A DNA stretch of 64,000 nt. It comes from Hygrocybe punicea (taxonomy: Eukaryota; Basidiomycota; Agaricomycetes; Agaricales; Hygrophoraceae). Both the position numbers and the translations under genes were made by a program. Location: positions 496,001 to 560,000 of the forward strand of contig OY744463.1 in assembly GCA_963556145.1 (NCBI GenBank), in the 5' to 3' direction. The notes beneath the pieces are model-generated. The model was not told where the DNA came from. It was given only the letters and a program-made list of their open reading frames with translations, and did no database searches. Shown piece after piece: positions 9,500 through 46,100 of the stretch; positions within the stretch are counted from its first letter, which is position 1, and every line of letters begins with the position of its first letter.

Positions 9500-9545
9500 A
9501 TTTTAAATTTAAATAACCCAAGCATTTCTATACCTCTAATACACA

Positions 9546-22300: not shown

Positions 22301-25300
22301 AGGCCAGCAATGTCCAGTCACACTTCTATGTATTACAAGATCAATTCTCTGATTACTATCAATCTGATGCTGAAGAAGATTTTGAAGCATATACTATACC
22401 TACAATCAAGGAAGAAGAAATACAAATCCTGCCTGCAGTCAGAGGACCACAGAAAATTGGTGCAGCAAGGAAGGAAGTATTAGATGGAGTATATCCTCCC
22501 ACAGGTATTAAGGCCAAAGGAAAAGAGAATATAAGGCCTAATACAGTACTGCCACCCATTCCTAAAGGCCCAGTCAAACCCGGCCCTCTTTCAGCACAGA
22601 AGCAAGCTCAAGCACATGTACCCGCACCATTACCTTTTGCTCTCAAGAAGACAAACCCATTCCATCCTACAGAAGATCTGCATACAAAACAACCTGTTCC
22701 AATGGATATAAGAGCCCCAATACATATTCCTTCAGACACAGATTCAGATGTGGAGATGATAGATCCTTCTCCAACAAAGCCAGCCAAGACTCATATACAA
22801 GGACACAAGGCAAACATAGATAAGAACAAGATCATGGCTGAAAGACATAATGCCATAACTCGTCCAAAGCCCACTCCCAGACAATCTGAAATTTCAGTCA
22901 ATATTGGAGAAACTCAAGTTGTCAATCAAATCCTTGACACACCAGTTACCCTGCGCGTTCGTGAAGTATTAGCTTCTTCCAAGGAATTATCTGAGCAATT
23001 AACAGACATGATCAAGAGAAAGAATGCAAAGGTATCTGCCATTGCAAGCTCATTCATAACCAAGGATCGTGAGTGTTAATCAGGCTTCAGATGGAATGTG
23101 ATAGAAGACCTATTGAAGCCATCATTGACACTGGATCCCAGTTAAATGTGATTAGTAAAAAAGTCTGGAAAGAAATTATCCAAAGACCTATGGATGTAGG
23201 AAAAATTCTCACAATGAATGATGCTAATGGAGGCGAAGGAACATTAAAAGGATTGGTCTCAGAAGTTCCATTGACTTGTGGTGGTGTCCTTACCTATGCC
23301 AATCTTTACATAGGAGAGACAGTGCCATTTGATTTATTACTTGGAAGACCATGGCAAAGAGGCAACTATGTTTCTATTGATGAAAGAATAGATGGTACAT
23401 ATTTAGTATTCAAGAATCCTGAAGATTTGACAAACAGATTTGAACTAATGGTCACACCAAGCCATTCTCAAGTTAATCACATCAGAGGAGCTACTACTGC
23501 CCATGCCTCAACATCCTATTTATGCACTTTACCTATGGAACTTGAAGAAACCACTACAATTCCTTTAACTAAGTCTTATGAACAAAATAAGGCATTAGTC
23601 CGCTATAATCCGCAATTTCAAACTCCGCTTAAACCGAATTATTTTACCGAAATGATTACATGCTTACAGGATAAGTCTTATTTGGATAAGGATAAGTCTG
23701 AAGTAAAAGGAGATAAAAGTATCTCATGCTTCAATATCCCCAAAAATGCATATGATGGCTCGAAACTTTTTGCATTGTCCATAGCCCATTGTGATGACAT
23801 GAACAATGAAGAATCTGAATTTTCTAAAAGGAGAAAGATAAGAAATGGATTTTCACACCAGGGAAATTTAGATAGGAATTGCTATAAAAACTCTGAAGAA
23901 ATGGGAGAGACAGTAGCCATGTCTGCTGCACAAACCCCCCAGATCCCACCTTTTATGATCAATAACCACCCTCTTCCTCTCCCTGTAGAAGGGATCCACT
24001 CCAATGGTCATCCAGATGCTGGCCGACTTATCACTTCCTTTTTGGGAAATTCCCTTGATTACCAATCTCCCCATTTAAGTAAATTTTTGATTGCTGCCAC
24101 TGTAGGATATAGGCTTTCTCCGGGGATTGATTCCCTTGGTGTTCCTTTTGAGCACGGAATTTTATTAAATGCTTCTCTAGCTACAATAAATTCTCCAAGT
24201 GTCCCCCCCTCTTTAAGGATGGGACATTTAGTTTTTCAATTTTACCCATTTGCTAACCCTTCTACTGAGGAGAACTTTTCTCCTCCCCCTGTCCCTCCTC
24301 CTTACATAGAGGACTTTTATTCTTTCCCAGTGACCACTCGTGACCCTCGCACGCGCCCCGGCGACATTATTCCGCCCTTAGAACCGCCCCGTAACCCCAT
24401 TAACTTACCGGTCACGCGGATTCCCACGGTTGGCTCTTCTGTCCCCACTATCACGCTCACTGGCGAGGACGACCGCGAATCGTTGTTGACCAACGACGAG
24501 GCGCGCGGTTGGAGCCCAATCGAAGGCTGGGAATGGGACTACGAGGTGGGAAAGATCCCGCTTCATCTGTTCACTGACAAACGACTTCCACTACAGTACA
24601 CGGAGCGTGGCCGTAGACGCCCCTCCCTGACTACTACCATGCCTCCGGAAAATACTTCGACCCTCGCAGATGGTACCACGGACCTTTCCGCGACCACGGA
24701 CAGCAATTTCTTTCATTTCCGGGGATCCGAAGTCCACTCAACGGCCCCCACCAATGACATTCACCATTCCGCCCTCGACATCAGCCGCGACCTGTTCGAA
24801 CATACAGATCGTGACGGATACGAGGCAGGTGATGAAGGGGAAGTAGAATGGCCAGGTTGCACGGTGTGTACTAGGCACCCCGCTCACGAAAAATGCCCGG
24901 ATTTTACCTCACTCACGAAAAAGCCTTCTTTTGACGATTATACGGCCCCGGCGGCCACCGTTCAGCTCGCAATACGCACGGAACCCATGAACGGCCACAA
25001 CGCCATCCCTGATAGTGACCTCCTCGACGTTATTATCCCCACTTCTCCGCGCGCGCCGTTAGTTGCATCCCTCCTCGAATCCACTAACTATATACCGGCA
25101 AATCATGAACGTAGCGCCCCGGCGGCGCTCGTTTATGACCACGGACTCCCACCTGGTCTCAATATGCCGCTTGATGCCCATTTACGCGACACTTCGCCCG
25201 GTCTCATCAATCACTACCCCACTTCCGCGAAAACCCCTGAATTTGTTTTCCCTGCTGATGACGACTGGGACTGGCCCGTCGGCCAGGTCAGATATATCAA

Positions 25301-26927
25301 CCCCGTCGTGCTCGAACCGCCCCGCATGCTTTACAACCACGCAGAGGTAAATTACGCATTTCCACCCCCTCCTCATGCCGAATTGGGACGCGAGCCGATT
25401 TCCCGGCCCCCCAGCGATCCGGACCTCTTATCAGACGTCTCCAACCATGCCACCCCTGGTTCCGATGTAGGAAACATTTGGTTCCCTGCTACTTCTTATT
25501 TGCCTACTCCCCCTTTTACCCCCTTTAATAGTAGTGAAAATTTTGTACCTTTAGTCTCTAGCTCCCCTTCTATGTCTTTTGATGATCTATATGGTGATTT
25601 AGAATATTCTCCTAAGTCTCCTATCTTTGAGGAAATTTTGCCAGATTTAAATAATAATAGTGATAATTATTTATATTCTTCAAATAAATACATAGATATT
25701 AAAAATACTTCTATGTCTGTAGATTCTCAATCATCTTCTTCTGTTTATTCTGGGAGTGACTCTGAAAATAAGGCTGTCAAGATCCTAAGCCCCAAACCAG
25801 ATCCACTCACCATCATTATTCCTCATACCACTTCCATAAATTCATCTCTACCTCAGCCTTATCAGGAACCTGGATCTAGGACTAGACCTATCAGTGTGTC
25901 CTCTTCTGAGGACATTAATTCATCTTCTGATGAATCCATGGACACAGACTCAGATGAAGAATTAGAATGGTTCGCTTGGACTAGGTCTGATTCCCCAGAT
26001 TCAGAAGCAATAACAGAATTTAATTCAGACCTCAGTCAGGCCATTGAAGAAGCCCAGCAGCCGCTCGATTCCCCTCCAGGCTTGATATCGCTTTCGCCTA
26101 CACCACCCCCACTTGAAGATATACCTTTGTTACAATTGCCACCTGTCTCAGACAATACTTGGTCCTTGCCAGAGGGTGAGGAAATCAATACCCCCTCTGA
26201 TGAATATGCCAGACTTCCATTTGATCGTGCCAATGCCTTAAATGCAGGAGAACGCATTTCGCCCTTATTTCCCTCCAAGGATCCCAGATCCCCATTTAGT
26301 GTCAGATCAGGCCCATTATATCCAGAATCCAATCTACTCACTCAGCTTCGCATGGAAGCACCTCCTATTCGCCCTCAATCACCCATTCAAGTGTATTCCT
26401 TCACCATCTCCAATGCTGGCTCCTCTCATCAGGACTTAGCTGCTGCAAGAATCTTAACAGCTGAGCCAGACCACATGTCTACATTTGATGTTCACATCAG
26501 TTTCCTCAAAGCTATTAGAGGATCCTTGGTTGAAGGCATTCGCAGAATTGGATTCAAGCTAGCCACCCCTGACTGGAGGGCCCTCATCAATGAAAGGCCT
26601 TCAAATGACCCCGTCCGCTATTATTTCAACCACAAGTGTTTACTATTTCGGTTTCTGGAAGAAGGAGTTTCTGAAGGACTACCTGAACCTGCAACAGAGC
26701 ATTTTAGGCCCCTTCACTTCACAGAGTCAAACCCTCTCCTTGAAGAAGAAGAAATCACCTTCCTCAAAAATTCCTCTATCATCTTTCGCTCCAATCGCCG
26801 CATGTTACTCTCTGATGCTATCAATGCAGTCTTGGATATGCGCTTTCGCCGCCCTGAAGCAGTGGCAGATTTGCTTAAGGAAGGATATTTTGATCCTCCC
26901 AAATATCACAAGTCCACAATTACTTAG
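22301..26927 (+). pseudogene. Gag-protease of copy 2, 5' end in gap, one frameshift
   Basis: The visible part corresponds to Gag-PR from about residue 452 onward. A single G is missing near 23070 (a cgtgag where copies 1 and 3 have cgtggag). The frame therefore ends at a stop at 23077-23079, just upstream of the protease active site. The protease and everything downstream stay open in the shifted frame from 23073 to 26927 and match copy 1. The lesion lies 770 bp from the assembly gap, so it may be a sequencing error rather than a real mutation. If real, copy 2 would depend on other copies for particle proteins. Confidence 0.8.
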
Positions 26928-29900
26928 TGATTTGTTTACTCTTGCAACAATATTTTTGCCCCTATGTCAAACCTCTCTTCTTTATATCTGTCTGTACTAC
27001 ATTTTATTACTTGATGTGATAGTGTACAAGTTTATATTTTCAAAAACTATTCAGGATTTGACATCCTTAGCCAGCCCTAGTATACCTGTGTACAAACAAA
27101 CTGAACTGACAAATATAACTTCTGTCAGACTGTATGAAGAGGACCCTCAAAATTCTAAGCATGAAGATAAGCCACTAGAACAATTCAGTGTATACTATGA
27201 GACTATTAAGGATAGCCAAGAAACAACTATGCCTATTTTAGTCTACCCAGAAGATGAAGACAATCAAGATTACAATCTTAATGAAGTACCAAATAAGCAA
27301 GAAAGTGCCTCAGAAGAAGCAGACTATTACTACATTATAGGAGAAGGAACCTTAATATGTGAAGAAGGAGACATTCTCATATTCCCTTGTGAAGAAACAG
27401 ATAGTCAAGGATATCCATTAACACTTACAGCTTACAAAAGAGTGGACAAGAAAATAAATCCTGTCCCTGGAACCTTTCCAGAAGATGCACGTGTTACAAG
27501 GAAATTTCCCTATGACCCTCTTTCCACATTACCACCACTTCCTATGATACTACCAGACTTCATACCTACAGAGAAGCTTACATCTGAACGTCTGAAGATA
27601 CTCAAGATAAACAATGATGGATTTCTTTGGCCAGAAGAAGAAAAATTATTTACTCACCTCTTGTCACTTAACCAAGATGCTATTGGCTTTGAAGATACTG
27701 AAAGAGGCACACTTAAGGAATCTTACTTTTCACCATACATCATCCCTACTGTCCCACATGTACCCTGGGCATTTCGAAATATTCCTATACCACCAGGACT
27801 TAGAGAAAAAGTCATGGATGTTTTGAAGAGAAAAATAGATGCTGGTGTATATGAACCAAGTCAATCCTCTTATAGGTCAAGATGGTTTTGTGTAAGCAAG
27901 AAGGATGGAAAACTTCGTATAGTCCATGATTTGCAACCTCTCAATGCAGTTACAATACGTGATGCAGGCCTTCCTCCAATACTAGATGAATTTGTAGAAC
28001 CTTTCGCTGGTCGCCAATGCTATACAGTCTTCGATTTACTATGGGGATTTGATGCTAGGAAAGTACATCCTACATCTCGTGACCTCACTGCATTCATGAC
28101 ACCACTGGGATTACTTCGTCTCACATCACTTCCCACTGGATTCACAAATTCACCTGCAGAATTCCAACGTTGTATGTGCTTCATCCTTCAAGATGAAATC
28201 CCTCATACTGCAAATAGCTTCATTGATGATTTACCTATAAAAGGACCTTCATCCATTTATCCTGATCAAGATGGAAGACCAGAAGTTTTACTAGAAAATC
28301 CAGGAATCAGAAGGTTTATTTGGGAGCACGCTCAAGATGTACATCGCATTATGCATCGCCTTGCTTGTGCAGGAATGACAATATCAGCTAAGAAGACACA
28401 ACTTTGCCGCTCAAGTGTCGTGATCGTAGGACAGAAATGCACTCCGGAAGGACGTTGTCCTGATGATAGTAGAGTACAAAAGGTTTTGGACTGGCCCCCA
28501 CTCAAGACTCCCAAGGATGTTAGAGGCTTCCTAGGTCTCTGTGGAACAGTTCGCATTTGGATAGAAAATTATTCTGCACTAGCCAAGCCACTAGCAGAGT
28601 TATTCCATAAAGGAGCAGAGTTTATATGGGATGAAAGAAGACAAGCAGCTTTCCAGGCATTGAAAGAAAAGGTTTCTTCAGCACCTGCACTCCGCTCTAT
28701 TGATTATACATCAGATAGACCCACATATTTATCAGTAGACAGTAGCCATATTGCTGCCGGTTTTATTTTATCACAAGAAGATGAAAATGGAAATCGTCGC
28801 CCTGCTAGATATGGTTCAATACCAATGAGTGAAAGAGAATCCAGATATTCACAGCCAAAACTGGAGTTATATGGACTATACCGCGCGTTACGCCACTGGA
28901 GACTGTATTTAATAGGAATAAAGAATTTACATATAGAGGTAGATGCCAAGTTTATAAAAGGCATGCTCAATGAACCGGATTTACAACCTAATGCAGCCAT
29001 AAACAGATGGATTCAAGGAATTTTATTATTTGACTTCAAACTTATTCATGTACCTGCAACCCAGTTTAGGGGACCAGATGCACTTTCTCGCAGAGAACTT
29101 GCAGATAATGAAGAAATTGAAAAGCATGATGATTCATGGCTAGATGATATTGCCTTGCTTGTTCATGTTCCTGATCCACATGAAATAAGAAAATTTAGCT
29201 TCACTGTCCCTACCAAATTGCCATACAAGGCCATCACACTCCCTTCAAATAATGAAATTAAATTACAACAGGACAAGATACTCATTCAAGTAAAACATTT
29301 TTTATCCACATTGGAAATGCCTTCAACAGATACCTTGCAGGCAAGAAGAAGATTTCTGAAGAAAACTGGACAATTTTATTTAAAAGATGATAAACTGTTT
29401 AGAAGAAATGGCCAGAAAATGCCTTCATTAGTGATTATGAATGCAAAGAAAAGAATCGCCATTCTCACTCAAGCTCATGAAAACTTAGGTCATAAAGGAG
29501 AACAAGCTGTGTTTGACTTAGTCAAACTTCGATTTTTTTGGCCTCATCTCAGAGCAGATGTCCATTACCACATTTCATCATGTCATCAGTGTCAAATTAG
29601 GAGCTTGAAGAAAATCGAAATTTCCCCTACAATTTCTACCCCTACAGCAATTTTTCAAAAGGTATACATTGATGTAATGTTTATGCCACCTTCAGGAGGC
29701 TACCATTTCATTGTAGCAGCACGTGATGATTTATCAGGAGCAACTGAAGTAAAAGCTCTAAGATCAAACAATTCACACAACTTAGCAAAATTCTTCTGGG
29801 AACAGATCTATTGTCGCTATGGTGCCATTGAACATGTAGTTACTGATAATGGAGGAGAAGTCAAAGGAGCATTTGAGTCTCTGCTTAGAAGACTAGGAAT

Positions 29901-31038
29901 TCCTCAGGTTCGCATATCACCCTACAATAAGCATGCAAATGGTGTAATAGAAAGAGGACATTTTACTCTACGTGAAGCCATAGTCAAGTCCTGTGAAAAA
30001 GATAAGACTGGAAAAATCAAGAATTGGCACAAGCACGTAGAGTTAGCATCATTTGCAGACCGAATTACAGTCAGCAGTGTTACTGGATACTCACCTTATT
30101 ATCTACTCCATGGCACTCATCCTATACTTCCCTTTGACCTAACAGAAGCCACATTTATGGTTGAAGGTTTTTGCTCAGGACTTTCTACATCAGATTTGTT
30201 AGCACTCCGCATACGTCAGCTTGGAAGACATCAAGAAGATATTGATAAAGCAGCAGCTGTGCTTAAACAGGCTCGCTTCATATCTAAATTGCAATTTGAT
30301 CAGAGATTTCATAGACGATTGCAAAAACGTGATTATCAGCCAGGAGAACTAGTTCTAGTATATAATAGTCGTTTGGAGATGACTATAGGAAAATTCAAGA
30401 CAGACCCTCGTTACCTTGGCCCATATGAAGTTGTCAGACAAACAAGAAGAGGAACTTATGTTTTAAAAGAATTAGATGGTGCTGTGCATGCTGAGCATTA
30501 TGCAGCATTTCGGATTTTACCATACATTTATCGAACTGACCCTATCCTTTATGAAATAGCAGACCAGGAAGATGAAGCTGCTGAAGTAGAGGATTGCTCA
30601 GTAAATCAGTTAATATCTCTTAAATCAGGAGACATCACAGATATTATTCTTGCCATCAAGCCAGAATTTGCTGCACACATTGCATCACGCACAAAGAATT
30701 TTGAATTTAGAAAATATCAAGTTCCAGCCACTGTCTGTCACATGTGGCTTTATGAAACAACGCCAATCAGTTCCATTACAGGTGTCATTACAGTTGGTTC
30801 AGTAAAAATACCAGGAGAAGTCAATGACCCCTCAGGTCTTGGCAATGATGACTTTGATGCAGGTTTAAAGTTGTCAAAATATGGTTATCCTATATATCAT
30901 CTTCATCAGTTACCAGTGCCACTATCTGCAGATTTACTCCAGAAAAGATACAATACCATTATTCCTCACCGCTATTGTATAGCCCCACACTCATTCATTC
31001 AAGAATTTCCTTTTTCTGCATTGATTCCGATATTCTAG
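26590..31038 (+). CDS. Pol polyprotein, copy 2
   Basis: The 1,482-codon frame encodes the same protein as the Pol at 15190-19638. It includes the FIDD reverse transcriptase box, RNase H, the HHCC and DDE integrase residues, the GPY motif and the ASCH-like tail. It overlaps the end of the copy-2 Gag-PR frame by 338 nt, as in copy 1. No disabling change is seen. Because the upstream Gag-PR frame is broken near 23070, expression by frameshifting from a full Gag-PR would fail if that break is real. Confidence 0.9.
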   Translation: MKGLQMTPSAIISTTSVYYFGFWKKEFLKDYLNLQQSILGPFTSQSQTLSLKKKKSPSSKIPLSSFAPIAACYSLMLSMQSWICAFAALKQWQICLRKDILILPNITSPQLLSDLFTLATIFLPLCQTSLLYICLYYILLLDVIVYKFIFSKTIQDLTSLASPSIPVYKQTELTNITSVRLYEEDPQNSKHEDKPLEQFSVYYETIKDSQETTMPILVYPEDEDNQDYNLNEVPNKQESASEEADYYYIIGEGTLICEEGDILIFPCEETDSQGYPLTLTAYKRVDKKINPVPGTFPEDARVTRKFPYDPLSTLPPLPMILPDFIPTEKLTSERLKILKINNDGFLWPEEEKLFTHLLSLNQDAIGFEDTERGTLKESYFSPYIIPTVPHVPWAFRNIPIPPGLREKVMDVLKRKIDAGVYEPSQSSYRSRWFCVSKKDGKLRIVHDLQPLNAVTIRDAGLPPILDEFVEPFAGRQCYTVFDLLWGFDARKVHPTSRDLTAFMTPLGLLRLTSLPTGFTNSPAEFQRCMCFILQDEIPHTANSFIDDLPIKGPSSIYPDQDGRPEVLLENPGIRRFIWEHAQDVHRIMHRLACAGMTISAKKTQLCRSSVVIVGQKCTPEGRCPDDSRVQKVLDWPPLKTPKDVRGFLGLCGTVRIWIENYSALAKPLAELFHKGAEFIWDERRQAAFQALKEKVSSAPALRSIDYTSDRPTYLSVDSSHIAAGFILSQEDENGNRRPARYGSIPMSERESRYSQPKLELYGLYRALRHWRLYLIGIKNLHIEVDAKFIKGMLNEPDLQPNAAINRWIQGILLFDFKLIHVPATQFRGPDALSRRELADNEEIEKHDDSWLDDIALLVHVPDPHEIRKFSFTVPTKLPYKAITLPSNNEIKLQQDKILIQVKHFLSTLEMPSTDTLQARRRFLKKTGQFYLKDDKLFRRNGQKMPSLVIMNAKKRIAILTQAHENLGHKGEQAVFDLVKLRFFWPHLRADVHYHISSCHQCQIRSLKKIEISPTISTPTAIFQKVYIDVMFMPPSGGYHFIVAARDDLSGATEVKALRSNNSHNLAKFFWEQIYCRYGAIEHVVTDNGGEVKGAFESLLRRLGIPQVRISPYNKHANGVIERGHFTLREAIVKSCEKDKTGKIKNWHKHVELASFADRITVSSVTGYSPYYLLHGTHPILPFDLTEATFMVEGFCSGLSTSDLLALRIRQLGRHQEDIDKAAAVLKQARFISKLQFDQRFHRRLQKRDYQPGELVLVYNSRLEMTIGKFKTDPRYLGPYEVVRQTRRGTYVLKELDGAVHAEHYAAFRILPYIYRTDPILYEIADQEDEAAEVEDCSVNQLISLKSGDITDIILAIKPEFAAHIASRTKNFEFRKYQVPATVCHMWLYETTPISSITGVITVGSVKIPGEVNDPSGLGNDDFDAGLKLSKYGYPIYHLHQLPVPLSADLLQKRYNTIIPHRYCIAPHSFIQEFPFSALIPIF

Positions 31039-32313
31039 CACCTTTGGTGACTGAATATTCAGTTATATCCAAGACCCCTATCCCTCATGTGATTTCCCGC
31101 TGCACACCCTCTTTTTCTATGCCCCATGCATTTTTATTGGCCGCTATTTTTACCTATGCACATGATTTCCCGTCACGCACCCTTTTTTTATGCTATCTAA
31201 ACTGATTGGATAAATTTTATTTGTTTTATGATTTGCTGGTCATTTTTAAGTCAGACATGCAAAGAAAATATATATAACGCTACAAAGTGATAATACAACC
31301 CCTCTCATCTAATAGTTGACGGACCCATTATATGAATACAATGATAATATATATAAAAGACATAACGAAACGTAACGAAACGAAACGAAACGAAACGAAA
31401 CGAAATGAAATGACAAGACATAATGAAATAGAAAATAGAATAAAAGGAAATACAACTGGTGTATGAATAGAAAGATAAAGAAATGGACGAACGACCGGTG
31501 ACCCTCCACTCCCAGTAGTCCAGCAACTGAGTCCCACCCGAAAAATATAGCGCTCGCCCCTAGTTGAAACGGAGTGATGCTCAACATCACCCCCGGCCCG
31601 TCCATCCTCCAGACGAATTCGTTGTCAAACGATTGCAGCAGATAGTAGTAAGGAACGGCTAGATTTAGACCGTCTTATCTACATGCCAATTATTCAGTAA
31701 TGGTGAAAATTGAATATAAATATAAGAAGTTACTTAGCGGTTTGGTTTTTCTTGAGTTTTTCTTGAAGGGAAGATGGAGTGACCATTCATAGCGTCGGAT
31801 AGATTTTTTTTACAATTTATTGCATAGTGGCATAGCAAGAAAAAGGAGTGGAGCACTACAGAACCATAGTGGCAGACTAGAGGAAAGAAAAAAACGGATC
31901 GTGCAAATGTACAGCTATGACCCTGGAAAACACGTGACCGGCACATGTTTTCTCATGTGACCTGAGTAAACGGTCTAGACCAAATAAGCATTGGTACTAT
32001 TGCAGATCTGTACCCGATACAGCTTCAAGACCCTGAAGAACCAAGGGAATGGTAAAATCCCGATTTGATCAATCATACAACCTTAAATCGAATTTGAAAT
32101 ACATCATCCCAATATAGCAAGGCCAGGGCTAGTTTAGTTCTGGACCCACAGGGACCTATTGTGACACAATGTCCCACATTAGTATTGCTTGACCCACCCC
32201 GGTTCCCCCACAAATATTTTCCCTTAACGTCTCCTGTTACATCAACTGCACCGCTATTCCGCTCAGCGCTTCAGCACTACCAGACGCCCATATACCGTAA
32301 TCCATATCATACT

Positions 32314-32886
32314 ATGACATCATACTCCAGTCCTTCACCTTCTCCATCTATGGATATTCCTCTACGCCGTCTCGATTTATCACGCTTATTCGATACTCCC
32401 ACCGAATACGATACGGACTTTTTTACCAAACCAACTAGTCCCGCTCAGACACCACCGCTACCCCCTTCGGAATCTGACGAATACATCGATTTCGAATCTG
32501 TGAACGTACGAGGTGTTGACTGTCCGCCGCCAGACGATTTCGACTTTTTCATGGATAGTCTTCCCAACTTTCCTATGCCACCCGCCACCGTCCCTTCGCA
32601 ATCTGTACCCTTAGACCCGGAGTTTAGAGAATGGCTCGAATCGCCTCCTTCATTTTCCACAAATCGTAACCACCCAACTTCCTCTCGCCGCAATCGTTTC
32701 GAACGCCCTGCAATTCCGGCATTACTTCCTAAGCCGCTACAAAAGAAGCGCACTCGCCCTAAGTACCACCTCAAGGCGCTACTAAATGCTACGAAGAAGA
32801 ATATGGATCGGTTAAAGGCAGAAGGAGTTGATGTACAAGATTGGGAGGAATTCTTTGGAAAGATGAAGAAGAAGTTAAAAGAATAG
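32314..32886 (+). CDS. Accessory ORF3, copy 2
   Basis: This is identical in protein sequence to the 190-aa ORF at 20914-21486: Ser/Pro-rich start, acidic-aromatic middle, basic Lys-rich end. It sits 88 bp before the 3' LTR. The function is unknown; persistence intact in each copy is the main support. Confidence 0.62.
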   Translation: MTSYSSPSPSPSMDIPLRRLDLSRLFDTPTEYDTDFFTKPTSPAQTPPLPPSESDEYIDFESVNVRGVDCPPPDDFDFFMDSLPNFPMPPATVPSQSVPLDPEFREWLESPPSFSTNRNHPTSSRRNRFERPAIPALLPKPLQKKRTRPKYHLKALLNATKKNMDRLKAEGVDVQDWEEFFGKMKKKLKE

Positions 32887-32973
32887 TAATAATGTAAAAG
32901 CTTCTTCTCAGATTAAAAAGTTGTTTTCTTTTGGTTTCAACTGGGGACAGTTGATTTAATTGTGTTGTGCGGA

Positions 32974-34381
32974 TGTCATGACCCCAAGTGTTTTTGGGTG
33001 TAATGTCATGGGTTTACCATCGGACCACGGACTTAGATATTTAAGTGCAACACTATGGATGCACACCTACACTCATTAGTACCCATTCTATGCCTTTCCA
33101 CATTACGCATGCTAGTGAACAGACACAAATAGCATATATGCTTACCTTTATATCATTTATTATGGCTTCACTAGTAATGCCCAGACCTAGCCGTTTATGT
33201 ATGGTGCACAGAGGCACATCCCCCACTCATTAGTATTTATTATATATTTCTCTGTATTGCGCGTGCAAGGAGACAAGCCCAACTAGCATTGTTACCTATA
33301 TTAGCAATAATGGATTGATTACAAATCTTGTTTACTTGTATTGATCAAAAGCGGCTCAGCTAGATAATGGGAAATGATTAGATAAGATGTGAACAAGAGG
33401 ATGATAAGATAATGATAAGATAGGATGCATCAGAGAGTGATTGTGATATTCTGCTTACATAAAGACAATGGTCTATTGTTCTGAGCAGTCTATTGTTCTA
33501 AACAGTCCAAATGGAGATAGAGCCCATTGTTCACAGCCTCTTTGATGCCATCCATTGTTCTCATGACTCAGTCCTATTGTTCTCACTTTCCCATTGTTCT
33601 CAGTCCCCCATTGTTCTCCAACAGTATAAATAGGGCCCCCAAATTCCAGTAGTCAGTAGGATTTCCCCCCTCACCACTCAGTAGTCACTCTCAGTTGGGT
33701 TCACACAGTGTGATCCCTCATTCTCTTAGTACTAGTAGTTACTCATTGTAGTAGCTAGTGCTTGCAATCCAGTCTAGTTCACTCTTATTCTATCATTCCC
33801 TGAGTTCCCCTTGTCATCAAGGAGAATTCACCCAGTTCACTCAGTTCAATCAATTCATTAGTCAGCATTAGTCAGCTAGATACATTTCTAAGGTTAAGGT
33901 TTCATCCTAAATAGATACACTTCTAAGGTTAAGGTTTCATCCTAAACAAAAAACAGAGTATTCAAAAGGTATTAAAGATATCCCTGAACTAGTAGCCAAT
34001 GTGCGTTTGAAGCTTCGGATTTAAGTCAGATATTATAATACCCAGAGATACTCTTGATTGAATAGGCCCTGTAGCCAAAACTGTCCATATTCAACTGGTG
34101 AATATTGTTATCAGTATTCATTAGTTCATATTTTTATATTCTAGTAGTGAATATTAGTATTTTCAGTACATCACACACCCAATTGCTATTCATACCTACT
34201 CAAAGTCTCAATTCTTAATTGAAGAGACCTCACTATTACATTCTATTGATTCATATAGTACATATACCCACAAACCCCTTCCTGATAGGTTATTTAGATA
34301 TTAAAAACCCACGAACAACAAGAAGATACCTGAACAAAGTCAACTCCGGTAATTCTTGGTGAAACAAACATTCACATAACA
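32974..34381 (+). repeat. 3' LTR of Ty3 copy 2
   Basis: This full 1,408-bp LTR has the octamer array at about 33475-33617 and TATAAATA at 33625-33632. It ends in ACA at 34381. The next four bases are CCGA, which do not match the GCGG left of copy 1 but are the reverse complement of the TCGG right of copy 3. Confidence 0.93.
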
Positions 34382-34500
34382 CCGACCGTAGGTCCAATTC
34401 CTTCAATAAGTTTCTATGCCAGATTAGCTGTTTCATGGCATGAGTAGCAGCGACATATTCCGCTGTAGAGGGTCGACGTCCCTCTGAGTCCGTATCATCG
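34382..34500 (-). pseudogene. Ty1/copia RNase H fragment, N-terminal side
   Basis: On the minus strand this stretch encodes STAEYVAATHAMKQLIW and continues to the element border. That matches the STEAEYxAxxxAxKExxW helix of copia RNase H. It stops abruptly at the Ty3 LTR at 34381. Its expected continuation, starting at the DNQAAIA motif, is on the plus strand from 50288 on the far side of the third Ty3 copy. Upstream of about 34500 no further copia reverse transcriptase is recognisable, so the element was already truncated or rearranged. Confidence 0.75.
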
Positions 34501-34565
34501 ATATATCACGAATCCGGACCAACCCGATGCCGCCATTCGACTTGCATTCGAACCCGACGCAACCC

Positions 34566-34588
34566 GACGTGACGTGACGTGACGTGAC
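34566..34588. repeat. GACGT/CGTGA pentanucleotide tandem repeat
   Basis: Four and a half copies of a GACGT-type unit are followed by GACCCGAC-type repeats. TGACGT is also the core of cAMP-response (bZIP) sites, but a simple-repeat origin is the more economical reading. Confidence 0.6.
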
Positions 34589-35376
34589 CCGACATGACCG
34601 ACATAACCCGACGTATGCCGCTTCGTCACAGCCGCTCTCAGACCAAATCCAGCAGCCTCAAACGCCTCGGAGTTCCAATTCCAGGAGATGGATCTCTTTG
34701 GACTCAATCCCCGACTTCGGATTTACCTTATTTATGCATCCCCTCGTCCTTTCGGAGATATGTAGGACTTTTCCAATCTTTTTCATGGATATTTGTTTTC
34801 CCCTCCACTTTCCTGTCTTCGTTGCTTTGCAACCCCCCTTTCCACTTCCCCATTCCAGTGTTTCTTTGTAGTTTCTATCGGCCGAAGTAGACATGTCCGA
34901 AAGTAGCTACACACTCATGTACTATAAAAACGGTCCCCGACGACCGTACAAAAAAACATACCATTAGTCCCCGTTTCCCTCATAGTCAGAATTGTTTTAA
35001 TCCCTTCAAATGCTCGTCCACGTAGTTCCTTAGCTTTTTATAGTTCACTTCGTCGACTTTATCATTGTTCCCGTATATTTGTTCATCGTTTCCGACCCGA
35101 CCTGACCTGACCCGCCGTACCCGACATCGTCGGCATCGTCGGGTTCATTCGTTTTCAGTCCGTTCACCATCGGGTTCATCGTTATTAGTCCGTTTTCACT
35201 CCGTTCATCGCTGGATTTGTCGTTACTAGTCGAGTTTATGCGGCGGCTTTACTTTTATTTCACTTTCACTTCACTTATTATCCCCGACACTGAATTATCC
35301 AGTCACTTCTACGCTGACACCCTCTGGTTAGGATCTTATTTTTATCAATATAGTTCCGAAGCCACCAAGAACCCGC

Positions 35377-36784
35377 TGTTATGTGAATGTTTGTTTCACC
35401 AAGAATTACCGGAGTTGACTTTGTTCAGGTATCTTCTTGTTGTTCGTGGGTTTTTAATATCTAAATAACCTATCAGGAAGGGGTTTGTGGGTATATGTAC
35501 TATATGAATCAATAGAATGTAATAGTGAGGTCTCTTCAATTAAGAATTGAGACTTTGAGTAGGTATGAATAGCAATTGGGTGTGTGATGTACTGAAAATA
35601 CTAATATTCACTACTAGAATATAAAAATATGAACTAATGAATACTGATAACAATATTCACCAGTTGAATATGGACAGTTTTGGCTACAGGGCCTATTCAA
35701 TCAAGAGTATCTCTGGGTATTATAATATCTGACTTAAATCCGAAGCTTCAAACGCACATTGGCTACTAGTTCAGGGATATCTTTAATACCTTTTGAATAC
35801 TCTGTTTTTTGTTTAGGATGAAACCTTAACCTTAGAAGTGTATCTATTTAGGATGAAACCTTAACCTTAGAAATGTATCTAGCTGACTAATGCTGACTAA
35901 TGAATTGATTGAACTGAGTGAACTGGGTGAATTCTCCTTGATGACAAGGGGAACTCAGGGAATGATAGAATAAGAGTGAACTAGACTGGATTGCAAGCAC
36001 TAGCTACTACAATGAGTAACTACTAGTACTAAGAGAATGAGGGATCACACTGTGTGAACCCAACTGAGAGTGACTACTGAGTGGTGAGGGGGGAAATCCT
36101 ACTGACTACTGGAATTTGGGGGCCCTATTTATACTGTTGGAGAACAATGGGGGACTGAGAACAATGGGAAAGTGAGAACAATAGGACTGAGTCATGAGAA
36201 CAATGGATGGCATCAAAGAGGCTGTGAACAATGGGCTCTATCTCCATTTGGACTGTTTAGAACAATAGACTGCTCAGAACAATAGACCATTGTCTTTATG
36301 TAAGCAGAATATCACAATCACTCTCTGATGCATCCTATCTTATCATTATCTTATCATCCTCTTGTTCACATCTTATCTAATCATTTCCCATTATCTAGCT
36401 GAGCCGCTTTTGATCAATACAAGTAAACAAGATTTGTAATCAATCCATTATTGCTAATATAGGTAACAATGCTAGTTGGGCTTGTCTCCTTGCACGCGCA
36501 ATACAGAGAAATATATAATAAATACTAATGAGTGGGGGATGTGCCTCTGTGCACCATACATAAACGGCTAGGTCTGGGCATTACTAGTGAAGCCATAATA
36601 AATGATATAAAGGTAAGCATATATGCTATTTGTGTCTGTTCACTAGCATGCGTAATGTGGAAAGGCATAGAATGGGTACTAATGAGTGTAGGTGTGCATC
36701 CATAGTGTTGCACTTAAATATCTAAGTCCGTGGTCCGATGGTAAACCCATGACATTACACCCAAAAACACTTGGGGTCATGACA
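35377..36784 (-). repeat. 3' LTR of Ty3 copy 3
   Basis: This 1,408-bp LTR in reverse orientation begins TGTCATG at 36784 and ends at 35377. As in the other copies, the internal sequence abutting it is gtgcgga rather than a polypurine tract. Confidence 0.93.
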
Positions 36785-36871
36785 TCCGCACAACACAATT
36801 AAATCAACTGTCCCCAGTTGAAACCAAAAGAAAACAACTTTTTAATCTGAGAAGAAGCTTTTACATTATTA

Positions 36872-37444
36872 CTATTCTTTTAACTTCTTCTTCATCTTTC
36901 CAAAGAATTCCTCCCAATCTTGTACATCAACTCCTTCTGCCTTTAACCGATCCATATTCTTCTTCGTAGCATTTAGTAGCGCCTTGAGGTGGTACTTAGG
37001 GCGAGTGCGCTTCTTTTGTAGCGGCTTAGGAAGTAATGCCGGAATTGCAGGGCGTTCGAAACGATTGCGGCGAGAGGAAGTTGGGTGGTTACGATTTGTG
37101 GAAAATGAAGGAGGCGATTCGAGCCATTCTCTAAACTCCGGGTCTAAGGGTACAGATTGCGAAGGGACGGTGGCGGGTGGCATAGGAAAGTTGGGAAGAC
37201 TATCCATGAAAAAGTCGAAATCGTCTGGCGGCGGACAGTCAACACCTCGTACGTTCACAGATTCGAAATCGATGTATTCGTCAGATTCCGAAGGGGGTAG
37301 CGGTGGTGTCTGAGCGGGACTAGTTGGTTTGGTAAAAAAGTCCGTATCGTATTCGGTGGGAGTATCGAATAAGCGTGATAAATCGAGACGGCGTAGAGGA
37401 ATATCCATAGATGGAGAAGGTGAAGGACTGGAGTATGATGTCAT
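36872..37444 (-). CDS. Accessory ORF3, copy 3
   Basis: This 190-codon frame gives the same protein as ORF3 of copies 1 and 2, lying between pol and the 3' LTR. Its ATG is at 37442-37444. It is Ser/Pro-rich, then acidic-aromatic, then basic. There are no membrane segments, cysteine motifs or recognised domain. Confidence 0.65.
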   Translation of the reverse strand: MTSYSSPSPSPSMDIPLRRLDLSRLFDTPTEYDTDFFTKPTSPAQTPPLPPSESDEYIDFESVNVRGVDCPPPDDFDFFMDSLPNFPMPPATVPSQSVPLDPEFREWLESPPSFSTNRNHPTSSRRNRFERPAIPALLPKPLQKKRTRPKYHLKALLNATKKNMDRLKAEGVDVQDWEEFFGKMKKKLKE

Positions 37445-38719
37445 AGTATGATATGGATTACGGTATATGGGCGTCTGGTAGTGCTGAAGCGCTGAGCGGA
37501 ATAGCGGTGCAGTTGATGTAACAGGAGACGTTAAGGGAAAATATTTGTGGGGGAACCGGGGTGGGTCAAGCAATACTAATGTGGGACATTGTGTCACAAT
37601 AGGTCCCTGTGGGTCCAGAACTAAACTAGCCCTGGCCTTGCTATATTGGGATGATGTATTTCAAATTCGATTTAAGGTTGTATGATTGATCAAATCGGGA
37701 TTTTACCATTCCCTTGGTTCTTCAGGGTCTTGAAGCTGTATCGGGTACAGATCTGCAATAGTACCAATGCTTATTTGGTCTAGACCGTTTACTCAGGTCA
37801 CATGAGAAAACATGTGCCGGTCACGTGTTTTCCAGGGTCATAGCTGTACATTTGCACGATCCGTTTTTTTCTTTCCTCTAGTCTGCCACTATGGTTCTGT
37901 AGTGCTCCACTCCTTTTTCTTGCTATGCCACTATGCAATAAATTGTAAAAAAAATCTATCCGACGCTATGAATGGTCACTCCATCTTCCCTTCAAGAAAA
38001 ACTCAAGAAAAACCAAACCGCTAAGTAACTTCTTATATTTATATTCAATTTTCACCATTACTGAATAATTGGCATGTAGATAAGACGGTCTAAATCTAGC
38101 CGTTCCTTACTACTATCTGCTGCAATCGTTTGACAACGAATTCGTCTGGAGGATGGACGGGCCGGGGGTGATGTTGAGCATCACTCCGTTTCAACTAGGG
38201 GCGAGCGCTATATTTTTCGGGTGGGACTCAGTTGCTGGACTACTGGGAGTGGAGGGTCACCGGTCGTTCGTCCATTTCTTTATCTTTCTATTCATACACC
38301 AGTTGTATTTCCTTTTATTCTATTTTCTATTTCATTATGTCTTGTCATTTCATTTCGTTTCGTTTCGTTTCGTTTCGTTTCGTTACGTTTCGTTATGTCT
38401 TTTATATATATTATCATTGTATTCATATAATGGGTCCGTCAACTATTAGATGAGAGGGGTTGTATTATCACTTTGTAGCGTTATATATATTTTCTTTGCA
38501 TGTCTGACTTAAAAATGACCAGCAAATCATAAAACAAATAAAATTTATCCAATCAGTTTAGATAGCATAAAAAAAGGGTGCGTGACGGGAAATCATGTGC
38601 ATAGGTAAAAATAGCGGCCAATAAAAATGCATGGGGCATAGAAAAAGAGGGTGTGCAGCGGGAAATCACATGAGGGATAGGGGTCTTGGATATAACTGAA
38701 TATTCAGTCACCAAAGGTG

Positions 38720-41700
38720 CTAGAATATCGGAATCAATGCAGAAAAAGGAAATTCTTGAATGAATGAGTGTGGGGCTATACAATAGCGGTGAGGAATAAT
38801 GGTATTGTATCTTTTCTGGAGTAAATCTGCAGATAGTGGCACTGGTAACTGATGAAGATGATATATAGGATAACCATATTTTGACAACTTTAAACCTGCA
38901 TCAAAGTCATCATTGCCAAGACCTGAGGGGTCATTGACTTCTCCTGGTATTTTTACTGAACCAACTGTAATGACACCTGTAATGGAACTGATTGGCGTTG
39001 TTTCATAAAGCCACATGTGACAGACAGTGGCTGGAACTTGATATTTTCTAAATTCAAAATTCTTTGTGCGTGATGCAATGTGTGCAGCAAATTCTGGCTT
39101 GATGGCAAGAATAATATCTGTGATGTCTCCTGATTTAAGAGATATTAACTGATTTACTGAGCAATCCTCTACTTCAGCAGCTTCATCTTCCTGGTCTGCT
39201 ATTTCATAAAGGATAGGGTCAGTTCGATAAATGTATGGTAAAATCCGAAATGCTGCATAATGCTCAGCATGCACAGCACCATCTAATTCTTTTAAAACAT
39301 AAGTTCCTCTTCTTGTTTGTCTGACAACTTCATATGGGCCAAGGTAACGAGGGTCTGTCTTGAATTTTCCTATAGTCATCTCCAAACGACTATTATATAC
39401 TAGAACTAGTTCTCCTGGCTGATAATCACGTTTTTGCAATCGTCTATGAAATCTCTGATCAAATTGCAATTTAGATATGAAGCGAGCCTGTTTAAGCACA
39501 GCTGCTGCTTTATCAATATCTTCTTGATGTCTTCCAAGCTGACGTATGCGGAGTGCTAACAAATCTGATGTAGAAAGTCCTGAGCAAAAACCTTCAACCA
39601 TAAATGTGGCTTCTGTTAGGTCAAAGGGAAGTATAGGATGAGTGCCATGGAGTAGATAATAAGGTGAGTATCCAGTAACACTGCTGACTGTAATTCGGTC
39701 TGCAAATGATGCTAACTCTACGTGCTTGTGCCAATTCTTGATTTTTCCAGTCTTATCTTTTTCACAGGACTTGACTATGGCTTCACGTAGAGTAAAATGT
39801 CCTCTTTCTATTACACCATTTGCATGCTTATTGTAGGGTGATATGCGAACCTGAGGAATTCCTAGTCTTCTAAGCAGAGACTCAAATGCTCCTTTGACTT
39901 CTCCTCCATTATCAGTAACTACATGTTCAATGGCACCATAGCGACAATAGATCTGTTCCCAGAAGAATTTTGCTAAGTTGTGTGAATTGTTTGATCTTAG
40001 AGCTTTTACTTCAGTTGCTCCTGATAAATCATCACGTGCTGCTACAATGAAATGGTAGCCTCCTGAAGGTGGCATAAACATTACATCAATGTATACCTTT
40101 TGAAAAATTGCTGTAGGGGTAGAAATTGTAGGGGAAATTTCGATTTTCTTCAAGCTCCTAATTTGACACTGATGACATGATGAAATGTGGTAATGGACAT
40201 CTGCTCTGAGATGAGGCCAAAAAAATCGAAGTTTGACTAAGTCAAACACAGCTTGTTCTCCTTTATGACCTAAGTTTTCATGAGCTTGAGTGAGAATGGC
40301 GATTCTTTTCTTTGCATTCATAATCACTAATGAAGGCATTTTCTGGCCATTTCTTCTAAACAGTTTATCATCTTTTAAATAAAATTGTCCAGTTTTCTTC
40401 AGAAATCTTCTTCTTGCCTGCAAGGTATCTGTTGAAGGCATTTCCAATGTGGATAAAAAATGTTTTACTTGAATGAGTATCTTGTCCTGTTGTAATTTAA
40501 TTTCATTATTTGAAGGGAGTGTGATGGCCTTGTATGGCAATTTGGTAGGGACAGTGAAGCTAAATTTTCTTATTTCATGTGGATCAGGAACATGAACAAG
40601 CAAGGCAATATCATCTAGCCATGAATCATCATGCTTTTCAATTTCTTCATTATCTGCAAGTTCTCTGCGAGAAAGTGCATCTGGTCCCCTAAACTGGGTT
40701 GCAGGTACATGAATAAGTTTGAAGTCAAATAATAAAATTCCTTGAATCCATCTGTTTATGGCTGCATTAGGTTGTAAATCCGGTTCATTGAGCATGCCTT
40801 TTATAAACTTGGCATCTACCTCTATATGTAAATTCTTTATTCCTATTAAATACAGTCTCCAGTGGCGTAACGCGCGGTATAGTCCATATAACTCCAGTTT
40901 TGGCTGTGAATATCTGGATTCTCTTTCACTCATTGGTATTGAACCATATCTAGCAGGGCGACGATTTCCATTTTCATCTTCTTGTGATAAAATAAAACCG
41001 GCAGCAATATGGCTACTGTCTACTGATAAATATGTGGGTCTATCTGATGTATAATCAATAGAGCGGAGTGCAGGTGCTGAAGAAACCTTTTCTTTCAATG
41101 CCTGGAAAGCTGCTTGTCTTCTTTCATCCCATATAAACTCTGCTCCTTTATGGAATAACTCTGCTAGTGGCTTGGCTAGTGCAGAATAATTTTCTATCCA
41201 AATGCGAACTGTTCCACAGAGACCTAGGAAGCCTCTAACATCCTTGGGAGTCTTGAGTGGGGGCCAGTCCAAAACCTTTTGTACTCTACTATCATCAGGA
41301 CAACGTCCTTCCGGAGTGCATTTCTGTCCTACGATCACGACACTTGAGCGGCAAAGTTGTGTCTTCTTAGCTGATATTGTCATTCCTGCACAAGCAAGGC
41401 GATGCATAATGCGATGTACATCTTGAGCGTGCTCCCAAATAAACCTTCTGATTCCTGGATTTTCTAGTAAAACTTCTGGTCTTCCATCTTGATCAGGATA
41501 AATGGATGAAGGTCCTTTTATAGGTAAATCATCAATGAAGCTATTTGCAGTATGAGGGATTTCATCTTGAAGGATGAAGCACATACAACGTTGGAATTCT
41601 GCAGGTGAATTTGTGAATCCAGTGGGAAGTGATGTGAGACGAAGTAATCCCAGTGGTGTCATGAATGCAGTGAGGTCACGAGATGTAGGATGTACTTTCC

Positions 41701-43168
41701 TAGCATCAAATCCCCATAGTAAATCGAAGACTGTATAGCATTGGCGACCAGCGAAAGGTTCTACAAATTCATCTAGTATTGGAGGAAGGCCTGCATCACG
41801 TATTGTAACTGCATTGAGAGGTTGCAAATCATGGACTATACGAAGTTTTCCATCCTTCTTGCTTACACAAAACCATCTTGACCTATAAGAGGATTGACTT
41901 GGTTCATATACACCAGCATCTATTTTTCTCTTCAAAACATCCATGACTTTTTCTCTAAGTCCTGGTGGTATAGGAATATTTCGAAATGCCCAGGGTACAT
42001 GTGGGACAGTAGGGATGATGTATGGTGAAAAGTAAGATTCCTTAAGTGTGCCTCTTTCAGTATCTTCAAAGCCAATAGCATCTTGGTTAAGTGACAAGAG
42101 GTGAGTAAATAATTTTTCTTCTTCTGGCCAAAGAAATCCATCATTGTTTATCTTGAGTATCTTCAGACGTTCAGATGTAAGCTTCTCTGTAGGTATGAAG
42201 TCTGGTAGTATCATAGGAAGTGGTGGTAATGTGGAAAGAGGGTCATAGGGAAATTTCCTTGTAACACGTGCATCTTCTGGAAAGGTTCCAGGGACAGGAT
42301 TTATTTTCTTGTCCACTCTTTTGTAAGCTGTAAGTGTTAATGGATATCCTTGACTATCTGTTTCTTCACAAGGGAATATGAGAATGTCTCCTTCTTCACA
42401 TATTAAGGTTCCTTCTCCTATAATGTAGTAATAGTCTGCTTCTTCTGAGGCACTTTCTTGCTTATTTGGTACTTCATTAAGATTGTAATCTTGATTGTCT
42501 TCATCTTCTGGGTAGACTAAAATAGGCATAGTTGTTTCTTGGCTATCCTTAATAGTCTCATAGTATACACTGAATTGTTCTAGTGGCTTATCTTCATGCT
42601 TAGAATTTTGAGGGTCCTCTTCATACAGTCTGACAGAAGTTATATTTGTCAGTTCAGTTTGTTTGTACACAGGTATACTAGGGCTGGCTAAGGATGTCAA
42701 ATCCTGAATAGTTTTTGAAAATATAAACTTGTACACTATCACATCAAGTAATAAAATGTAGTACAGACAGATATAAAGAAGAGAGGTTTGACATAGGGGC
42801 AAAAATATTGTTGCAAGAGTAAACAAATCACTAAGTAATTGTGGACTTGTGATATTTGGGAGGATCAAAATATCCTTCCTTAAGCAAATCTGCCACTGCT
42901 TCAGGGCGGCGAAAGCGCATATCCAAGACTGCATTGATAGCATCAGAGAGTAACATGCGGCGATTGGAGCGAAAGATGATAGAGGAATTTTTGAGGAAGG
43001 TGATTTCTTCTTCTTCAAGGAGAGGGTTTGACTCTGTGAAGTGAAGGGGCCTAAAATGCTCTGTTGCAGGTTCAGGTAGTCCTTCAGAAACTCCTTCTTC
43101 CAGAAACCGAAATAGTAAACACTTGTGGTTGAAATAATAGCGGACGGGGTCATTTGAAGGCCTTTCAT
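38720..43168 (-). CDS. Pol polyprotein, copy 3
   Basis: This 1,482-codon frame is identical in product to copy 1: RT with FIDD, RNase H, HHCC/DDE integrase, GPY motif and a C-terminal ASCH-like domain of about 120 residues. It overlaps Gag-PR (42831-48812) by 338 nt in a different frame, consistent with frameshift or reinitiation for Pol expression. All catalytic residues are present, so this copy is a candidate for an active element. Confidence 0.92.
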   Translation of the reverse strand: MKGLQMTPSAIISTTSVYYFGFWKKEFLKDYLNLQQSILGPFTSQSQTLSLKKKKSPSSKIPLSSFAPIAACYSLMLSMQSWICAFAALKQWQICLRKDILILPNITSPQLLSDLFTLATIFLPLCQTSLLYICLYYILLLDVIVYKFIFSKTIQDLTSLASPSIPVYKQTELTNITSVRLYEEDPQNSKHEDKPLEQFSVYYETIKDSQETTMPILVYPEDEDNQDYNLNEVPNKQESASEEADYYYIIGEGTLICEEGDILIFPCEETDSQGYPLTLTAYKRVDKKINPVPGTFPEDARVTRKFPYDPLSTLPPLPMILPDFIPTEKLTSERLKILKINNDGFLWPEEEKLFTHLLSLNQDAIGFEDTERGTLKESYFSPYIIPTVPHVPWAFRNIPIPPGLREKVMDVLKRKIDAGVYEPSQSSYRSRWFCVSKKDGKLRIVHDLQPLNAVTIRDAGLPPILDEFVEPFAGRQCYTVFDLLWGFDARKVHPTSRDLTAFMTPLGLLRLTSLPTGFTNSPAEFQRCMCFILQDEIPHTANSFIDDLPIKGPSSIYPDQDGRPEVLLENPGIRRFIWEHAQDVHRIMHRLACAGMTISAKKTQLCRSSVVIVGQKCTPEGRCPDDSRVQKVLDWPPLKTPKDVRGFLGLCGTVRIWIENYSALAKPLAELFHKGAEFIWDERRQAAFQALKEKVSSAPALRSIDYTSDRPTYLSVDSSHIAAGFILSQEDENGNRRPARYGSIPMSERESRYSQPKLELYGLYRALRHWRLYLIGIKNLHIEVDAKFIKGMLNEPDLQPNAAINRWIQGILLFDFKLIHVPATQFRGPDALSRRELADNEEIEKHDDSWLDDIALLVHVPDPHEIRKFSFTVPTKLPYKAITLPSNNEIKLQQDKILIQVKHFLSTLEMPSTDTLQARRRFLKKTGQFYLKDDKLFRRNGQKMPSLVIMNAKKRIAILTQAHENLGHKGEQAVFDLVKLRFFWPHLRADVHYHISSCHQCQIRSLKKIEISPTISTPTAIFQKVYIDVMFMPPSGGYHFIVAARDDLSGATEVKALRSNNSHNLAKFFWEQIYCRYGAIEHVVTDNGGEVKGAFESLLRRLGIPQVRISPYNKHANGVIERGHFTLREAIVKSCEKDKTGKIKNWHKHVELASFADRITVSSVTGYSPYYLLHGTHPILPFDLTEATFMVEGFCSGLSTSDLLALRIRQLGRHQEDIDKAAAVLKQARFISKLQFDQRFHRRLQKRDYQPGELVLVYNSRLEMTIGKFKTDPRYLGPYEVVRQTRRGTYVLKELDGAVHAEHYAAFRILPYIYRTDPILYEIADQEDEAAEVEDCSVNQLISLKSGDITDIILAIKPEFAAHIASRTKNFEFRKYQVPATVCHMWLYETTPISSITGVITVGSVKIPGEVNDPSGLGNDDFDAGLKLSKYGYPIYHLHQLPVPLSADLLQKRYNTIIPHRYCIAPHSFIQEFPFSALIPIF

Positions 43169-46100
43169 TGATGAGGGCCCTCCAGTCAGGGGTGGCTAGC
43201 TTGAATCCAATTCTGCGAATGCCTTCAACCAAGGATCCTCTAATAGCTTTGAGGAAACTGATGTGAACATCAAATGTAGACATGTGGTCTGGCTCAGCTG
43301 TTAAGATTCTTGCAGCAGCTAAGTCCTGATGAGAGGAGCCAGCATTGGAGATGGTGAAGGAATACACTTGAATGGGTGATTGAGGGCGAATAGGAGGTGC
43401 TTCCATGCGAAGCTGAGTGAGTAGATTGGATTCTGGATATAATGGGCCTGATCTGACACTAAATGGGGATCTGGGATCCTTGGAGGGAAATAAGGGCGAA
43501 ATGCGTTCTCCTGCATTTAAGGCATTGGCACGATCAAATGGAAGTCTGGCATATTCATCAGAGGGGGTATTGATTTCCTCACCCTCTGGCAAGGACCAAG
43601 TATTGTCTGAGACAGGTGGCAATTGTAACAAAGGTATATCTTCAAGTGGGGGTGGTGTAGGCGAAAGCGATATCAAGCCTGGAGGGGAATCGAGCGGCTG
43701 CTGGGCTTCTTCAATGGCCTGACTGAGGTCTGAATTAAATTCTGTTATTGCTTCTGAATCTGGGGAATCAGACCTAGTCCAAGCGAACCATTCTAATTCT
43801 TCATCTGAGTCTGTGTCCATGGATTCATCAGAAGATGAATTAATGTCCTCAGAAGAGGACACACTGATAGGTCTAGTCCTAGATCCAGGTTCCTGATAAG
43901 GCTGAGGTAGAGATGAATTTATGGAAGTGGTATGAGGAATAATGATGGTGAGTGGATCTGGTTTGGGGCTTAGGATCTTGACAGCCTTATTTTCAGAGTC
44001 ACTCCCAGAATAAACAGAAGAAGATGATTGAGAATCTACAGACATAGAAGTATTTTTAATATCTATGTATTTATTTGAAGAATATAAATAATTATCACTA
44101 TTATTATTTAAATCTGGCAAAATTTCCTCAAAGATAGGAGACTTAGGAGAATATTCTAAATCACCATATAGATCATCAAAAGACATAGAAGGGGAGCTAG
44201 AGACTAAAGGTACAAAATTTTCACTACTATTAAAGGGGGTAAAAGGGGGAGTAGGCAAATAAGAAGTAGCAGGGAACCAAATGTTTCCTACATCGGAACC
44301 AGGGGTGGCATGGTTGGAGACGTCTGATAAGAGGTCCGGATCGCTGGGGGGCCGGGAAATCGGCTCGCGTCCCAATTCGGCATGAGGAGGGGGTGGAAAT
44401 GCGTAATTTACCTCTGCGTGGTTGTAAAGCATGCGGGGCGGTTCGAGCACGACGGGGTTGATATATCTGACCTGGCCGACGGGCCAGTCCCAGTCGTCAT
44501 CAGCAGGGAAAACAAATTCAGGGGTTTTCGCGGAAGTGGGGTAGTGATTGATGAGACCGGGCGAAGTGTCGCGTAAATGGGCATCAAGCGGCATATTGAG
44601 ACCAGGTGGGAGTCCGTGGTCATAAACGAGCGCCGCCGGGGCGCTACGTTCATGATTTGCCGGTATATAGTTAGTGGATTCGAGGAGGGATGCAACTAAC
44701 GGCGCGCGCGGAGAAGTGGGGATAATAACGTCGAGGAGGTCACTATCAGGGATGGCGTTGTGGCCGTTCATGGGTTCCGTGCGTATTGCGAGCTGAACGG
44801 TGGCCGCCGGGGCCGTATAATCGTCAAAAGAAGGCTTTTTCGTGAGTGAGGTAAAATCCGGGCATTTTTCGTGAGCGGGGTGCCTAGTACACACCGTGCA
44901 ACCTGGCCATTCTACTTCCCCTTCATCACCTGCCTCGTATCCGTCACGATCTGTATGTTCGAACAGGTCGCGGCTGATGTCGAGGGCGGAATGGTGAATG
45001 TCATTGGTGGGGGCCGTTGAGTGGACTTCGGATCCCCGGAAATGAAAGAAATTGCTGTCCGTGGTCGCGGAAAGGTCCGTGGTACCATCTGCGAGGGTCG
45101 AAGTATTTTCCGGAGGCATGGTAGTAGTCAGGGAGGGGCGTCTACGGCCACGCTCCGTGTACTGTAGTGGAAGTCGTTTGTCAGTGAACAGATGAAGCGG
45201 GATCTTTCCCACCTCGTAGTCCCATTCCCAGCCTTCGATTGGGCTCCAACCGCGCGCCTCGTCGTTGGTCAACAACGATTCGCGGTCGTCCTCGCCAGTG
45301 AGCGTGATAGTGGGGACAGAAGAGCCAACCGTGGGAATCCGCGTGACCGGTAAGTTAATGGGGTTACGGGGCGGTTCTAAGGGCGGAATAATGTCGCCGG
45401 GGCGCGTGCGAGGGTCACGAGTGGTCACTGGGAAAGAATAAAAGTCCTCTATGTAAGGAGGAGGGACAGGGGGAGGAGAAAAGTTCTCCTCAGTAGAAGG
45501 GTTAGCAAATGGGTAAAATTGAAAAACTAAATGTCCCATCCTTAAAGAGGGGGGGACACTTGGAGAATTTATTGTAGCTAGAGAAGCATTTAATAAAATT
45601 CCGTGCTCAAAAGGAACACCAAGGGAATCAATCCCCGGAGAAAGCCTATATCCTACAGTGGCAGCAATCAAAAATTTACTTAAATGGGGAGATTGGTAAT
45701 CAAGGGAATTTCCCAAAAAGGAAGTGATAAGTCGGCCAGCATCTGGATGACCATTGGAGTGGATCCCTTCTACAGGGAGAGGAAGAGGGTGGTTATTGAT
45801 CATAAAAGGTGGGATCTGGGGGGTTTGTGCAGCAGACATGGCTACTGTCTCTCCCATTTCTTCAGAGTTTTTATAGCAATTCCTATCTAAATTTCCCTGG
45901 TGTGAAAATCCATTTCTTATCTTTCTCCTTTTAGAAAATTCAGATTCTTCATTGTTCATGTCATCACAATGGGCTATGGACAATGCAAAAAGTTTCGAGC
46001 CATCATATGCATTTTTGGGGATATTGAAGCATGAGATACTTTTATCTCCTTTTACTTCAGACTTATCCTTATCCAAATAAGACTTATCCTGTAAGCATGT

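Follow-up and report, generated by a model that had tools for sequence, protein, structure and literature searches.

Reversed orientation of a 995 bp spacer between two inverted Ty3-type retrotransposons in the assembled genome of Hygrocybe punicea

A 995 bp spacer (34382-35376) between two Ty3-type LTR retrotransposons of opposite orientation, here called R and R', is near certain to have been turned relative to its original order in the assembled genome of Hygrocybe punicea (92.2 Mb, 42 contigs). Analysis of the window, the whole stretch of 64,000 nucleotides (C3:496001-560000), showed that the left flank was originally followed by R, then by the spacer in reverse, and then by R' and the right flank. 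Judged from the assembled sequence, the flip would be due to an assembly error in which the orientation was set wrongly between the identical elements, and we give this cause a probability of about 0.78. The initial annotation had proposed the flip on the agreement of two tests, one using target site duplications (TSDs) and one using a copia junction. Both tests held and a third, new test using an LTR junction concurred. The copia and LTR junction tests are independent of the TSDs, and it is these two that decide the orientation.

At the left of the locus a truncated older Ty3 LTR 5' piece (7669-8027, plus strand, 359 bp) was 98.6% identical to the Ty3 LTR of R. This older piece ended abruptly in copia-type sequence, and its right breakpoint was absent from 40 other places among the matches listed. 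Left flank A (8028-8070, plus strand) comprised copia-type sequence at 8028-8059, the outer end of an LTR of another family at 8060-8066 (the reverse complement of ATCTACA) and the TSD GCGG at 8067-8070. R followed on the plus strand (8071-22200), with an LTR at 8071-9478, an internal region and the 3' LTR up to its base 627, where a scaffold gap of 100 N (22201-22300) cut it off. The next contig started with Ty3 internal region and a 3' LTR at 32974-34381 (22301-34381, plus strand). The spacer consisted of an 82 nt copia-type piece on the minus strand (34382-34463, with CCGA at 34382-34385) and a plus-strand LTR of the other family (34464-35376, TGTAGA...TCTACA, starting with TGTAGAGGG), which carried CCGC at 35373-35376 and whose last 7 bases were absent here and found at the left flank. 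R', called copy 3 in the initial annotation, occupied 35377-50287 on the minus strand (14,911 bp, both LTRs), and the copia-type sequence continued in right flank B (50288-50868, plus strand), starting with TCGG at 50288-50291. Right flank B had 39 other genome places (best 40 of 326 candidates). R and R' were identical across 14,130 bp (8071-22200 against 36158-50287). Both LTR/spacer junctions fit either orientation, and because R and R' were identical wherever both were present, bar one indel, the switch point falls somewhere within the elements and not at either end of the spacer.

Several other features were observed around this nest of elements. An inverted pair of NB-ARC/TPR genes (733-5092 and 59462-63878, 91% identical) flanked the whole nest and contained 126 bp (42 aa) repeats, the Pfam basis being the left gene at 733-5092. 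No Pfam family matched a 366 aa open frame on the minus strand at 52132-53232, for which the protein collection contained 95 relatives, and part of its DNA was about 91% similar to C36:1248638-1249517. A repeat of about 165 bp at 51735-51900 had many copies of 94-99% identity genome-wide and is possibly a short mobile element.

The internal region of R (15163-19635) matched the Pfam families RVT_1, RT_RNaseH_2, RT_RNaseH and Integrase_H2C2, an order and set of families that we take to mark Ty3 and not copia. The LTRs of R and R' were 1408 bp, near-identical and bounded by TG...CA, with the ends TGTCATGA...TCACATAACA. These domains of a reverse transcriptase, an RNase H and an integrase, the LTR ends and a TSD of constant length place R and R' among the Ty3-type LTR retrotransposons. 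A 262 aa open frame with no Pfam match lay between the Ty3 pol and the 3' LTR (20698-21486), with copies at 32098-32886 and 36872-37660. The assignment of the host of the Ty3 insertions as a copia-type element was borne out in one other copy, L042, in which RVT_2 (PF07727, E 5.6e-59), presumably a mark of copia, was detected at L042:18-1028, upstream of the piece matching the spacer. The L042 open frame holding the copia piece (1282-1848) had 0 matches to Pfam families or PDB sequences; we assume that the spacer copia piece is the RNase H region. The initial annotation had placed a copia RNase H half at 34382-34500. Its copia origin stood but its extent did not, as the piece covers 34382-34463 and the LTR begins at 34464.

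To read the order of the host element, three query pieces were aligned separately to other copia places, namely 39 nt from the left flank and, each trimmed of its tetranucleotide, 78 nt from the spacer and 577 nt from the right flank, and junctions were counted in the 29 of 39 places that had loci, leaving the remaining 10 out of the count. The reverse-complemented spacer piece was followed by exactly 4 nt and then by the right-flank piece in 27/29 copies. In the same 27 copies the left-flank piece aligned, over its initial 29-31 nt, directly upstream of the spacer piece, the two pieces overlapping by a few bases that equal the older LTR's target site. At the other two loci (L059 and L062) the left-flank and spacer pieces scored no higher than shuffled pieces, a background taken from one locus (L040) with 20 shuffles per piece. 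The copia order in 27 of the 29 copies is the order expected after spacer reversal and not the assembled order. The spacer copia piece had been proposed to belong beside the right flank that starts at 50288, and these copies placed it there with a single 4 nt site between. An intact copia copy in the current order had been named as evidence that would speak against the flip; what the 27 copies showed was the reversed-spacer order instead.

The LTR of the other family gave the same answer. Seven of its 39 listed copies were inspected, the other 32 lying outside the count, and all seven continued beyond AACCCGC with ATCTACA, one base being changed in L007 (ATCTATA). Reverse-complemented, the left flank reads CCGC-ATCTACA. 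The continuation seen in 7/7 copies is therefore found at the left flank, and the right end of the spacer once adjoined it. This older LTR itself had a target site with one mismatch (GCGA/GCGG), and GCGG was present at that position in 15/19 copia copies among the matches listed.

The TSDs pointed in the same direction with less force. The four tetranucleotides were confirmed as the initial annotation gave them: in the assembled order GCGG, CCGA, CCGC and TCGG, neither Ty3 insertion has a matching pair, and reversal of 34382-35376 yields GCGG/GCGG and TCGG/TCGG. Full Ty3 LTR places numbered 40 among the best 40 of 311 candidates, and loci were available for 30, the other 10 being left out. Five of these 30 were the window's own, 20 formed ten pairs, one (L033) was completed separately, two (L024 and L030) were read on the 3' side only, and two (L029 and L036) are apparently solo LTRs, with sites CCGT/CCAT and CCGC/CCAC. 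Insertions with 5 bp or absent duplications had been suggested as a sign against the flip, and an exact 4 bp TSD was found in 10 of the 11 other elements of the family that were read at both ends. These ten lay on C41, C40, C36, C35 (three), C1 (two), C34 and C33, and all 10/10 had equal sites; the eleventh, on C39, had the unequal sites CCGC/CCGA. Target sites of the family were mostly NCGN (9/10 of those used for the chance estimate), suggesting that insertion prefers a central CG (L009-L038, L070). Given this preference, the chance of two TSD matches is about 0.009-0.018 and not 1 in 65,536, as estimated from ten TSDs that include the 5' site of the C39 element and exclude the element C35c. 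Because the family sites are mostly NCGN, the two matches are weak as a sole test, and the TSD argument alone is suggestive but not decisive.

The sequence left of the spacer had been described as a tandem. Comparison of 10900-22200 with 22301-33600 gave 0 mismatches and one 1 nt indel over 11,301 aligned bp, the indel being one G absent from the second contig near 23072, some 770 nt after its first base. The duplicated sequence is present as described, but the 100-N gap, which the initial annotation had missed, and the repeat across it make its reading as a biological tandem doubtful. The repeat on both sides of the gap has the form expected of a false duplication at a contig boundary. The gap together with the 11.3 kb repeat across it marks the apparent tandem as a point where two contigs, each ending within the element, were joined in scaffolding. 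Its second copy probably represents DNA already present in the first, an unmerged overlap of one element. Among the 40 full LTR places (best 40 of 311) there was no other three-LTR array at element spacing, and this absence among the listed places, with the gap, disfavours a real tandem. A true tandem of identical copies is possible, since other copies of the family are also mutually identical over the 2.9 kb compared. Homotype false duplications often occur at contig boundaries and are about as long as a read (PMC8081667). The vertebrate assemblies described there likewise have near-identical sequence flanking a gap at a contig boundary; an assembler bug caused one example there, whereas here the cause is likely to be the long inverted repeat, and the proof there came from coverage and k-mers, whereas here the duplication was read from the assembled sequence alone.

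The gap and duplication would fit a simple sequence of events. Two recent insertions of one Ty3-type element, in opposite orientation and 995 bp apart, would have entered an old copia-type element that already bore the other-family LTR. With identity of about 14.9 kb, R and R' would collapse into one graph node whose inner side holds both spacer ends, forming a hairpin, and reads short of the whole element would back both spacer orientations equally. The assembler may then have walked from inside R through the spacer in the wrong orientation, on through R' and into the right flank, leaving the other contig to end inside R. The scaffolder would have joined the two contigs with 100 N and left the 11.3 kb overlap unmerged, producing the false tandem. 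By arithmetic, the whole element is spanned by 0 of the coverage for 15 kb reads and by 12-17% at 18 kb. Identity of R and R' was set aside as proof of read collapse, as C41a, C40a, C35b and C1a are equally identical over 2.9 kb.

The initial annotation had left the cause between inversion by recombination and assembly error, and of this pair the gap and the 11.3 kb duplication move weight to assembly error. A crossover between inverted R and R' in vivo, which would have turned the spacer and made both elements hybrids with swapped 3' flanks, predicts the observed sequence exactly, with the 3' target sites exchanged and the remainder intact, and there is a precedent in Saccharomyces, where inverted repeats of about 4 kb repeatedly flip a 24 kb region (PMC9731477). 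In that chromosome XIV flip/flop, too, the region that inverts is bounded by near-identical inverted repeats; it is real, old and recurrent with repeats formed by gene pairs, whereas here 995 bp lies between retrotransposons and inversion of the DNA is putative. However, such an inversion alone leaves both the scaffold gap and the 11.3 kb repeat across it unexplained, and a fixed inversion, if resolved by reads, ought to have assembled unbroken; we consider it quite unlikely. Mis-walking is favoured over a crossover because the gap and the unmerged overlap fall at the same place. Against assembly error, the second contig crosses all of R' into the right flank, so that spanning reads may exist. 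In addition, an inverted pair on C35, separated by about 35 kb and without differences in the 2.9 kb compared, had both TSDs equal as assembled, indicating that inverted pairs in this assembly are not flipped in general. The two LTRs of the C39 element (L014/L013, C39:4392484-4409386) were identical over 1,406 bp. Another 100-N gap (C39:4392507-4392606) is located about 0.4 kb from this element, which may represent a further misjoin, a hybrid or a site altered by mutation.

Coexistence of both orientations in the sequenced culture or nuclei, with the mixture breaking the assembly, would account for the flip and the contig break together. Chloroplast genomes with 10-30 kb inverted repeats occur in two orientations (PMC7145664), and in them a single-copy region likewise sits between long inverted repeats and its orientation is readable only from molecules spanning the whole repeat, as it would be here; both forms were shown to coexist there, whereas here one form was assembled, the non-original one. 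Repeat length is by itself enough to break a contig, though, and no second right-flank allele was found among the matches listed: the 39 other places for 50288-51300 did not extend past query base 595 (best 40 scored), and 51000-53600 matched in full length only the window itself (best 40 scored). The yeast flip/flop region is also reported to be stable in orientation on laboratory timescales (PMC9731477), and we regard coexistence as very doubtful. It is hardly conceivable that the assembly shows the original order and that the agreement after flipping is a coincidence. The TSD matches alone would arise by chance at 0.9-1.8%, and the C39 element likewise has unequal sites, but coincidence is contradicted by 27/29 copia copies and 7/7 LTR copies. 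Chance was rejected as the source of the TSD matches: the NCGN preference weakens the TSDs as evidence, but the junction tests overrule coincidence.

Together these data show that the TSDs of recent LTR insertions and the junctions of the elements they interrupt can serve as a cheap, sequence-only check of orientation that needs no reads. In this genome, raw reads should be checked before the tandem copy or the order around C3:504-546 kb is taken as biology. A literature search found no paper on inversion between inverted fungal Ty3 retrotransposons with target site duplication. It is unlikely that the spacer is truly flipped, perhaps with both orientations in the culture, and that the freshly inserted, identical inverted 14.9 kb elements act as a recombination switch. 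If it were so, new insertions could make a locus prone to inversion, a hotspot arising in a very small number of generations.
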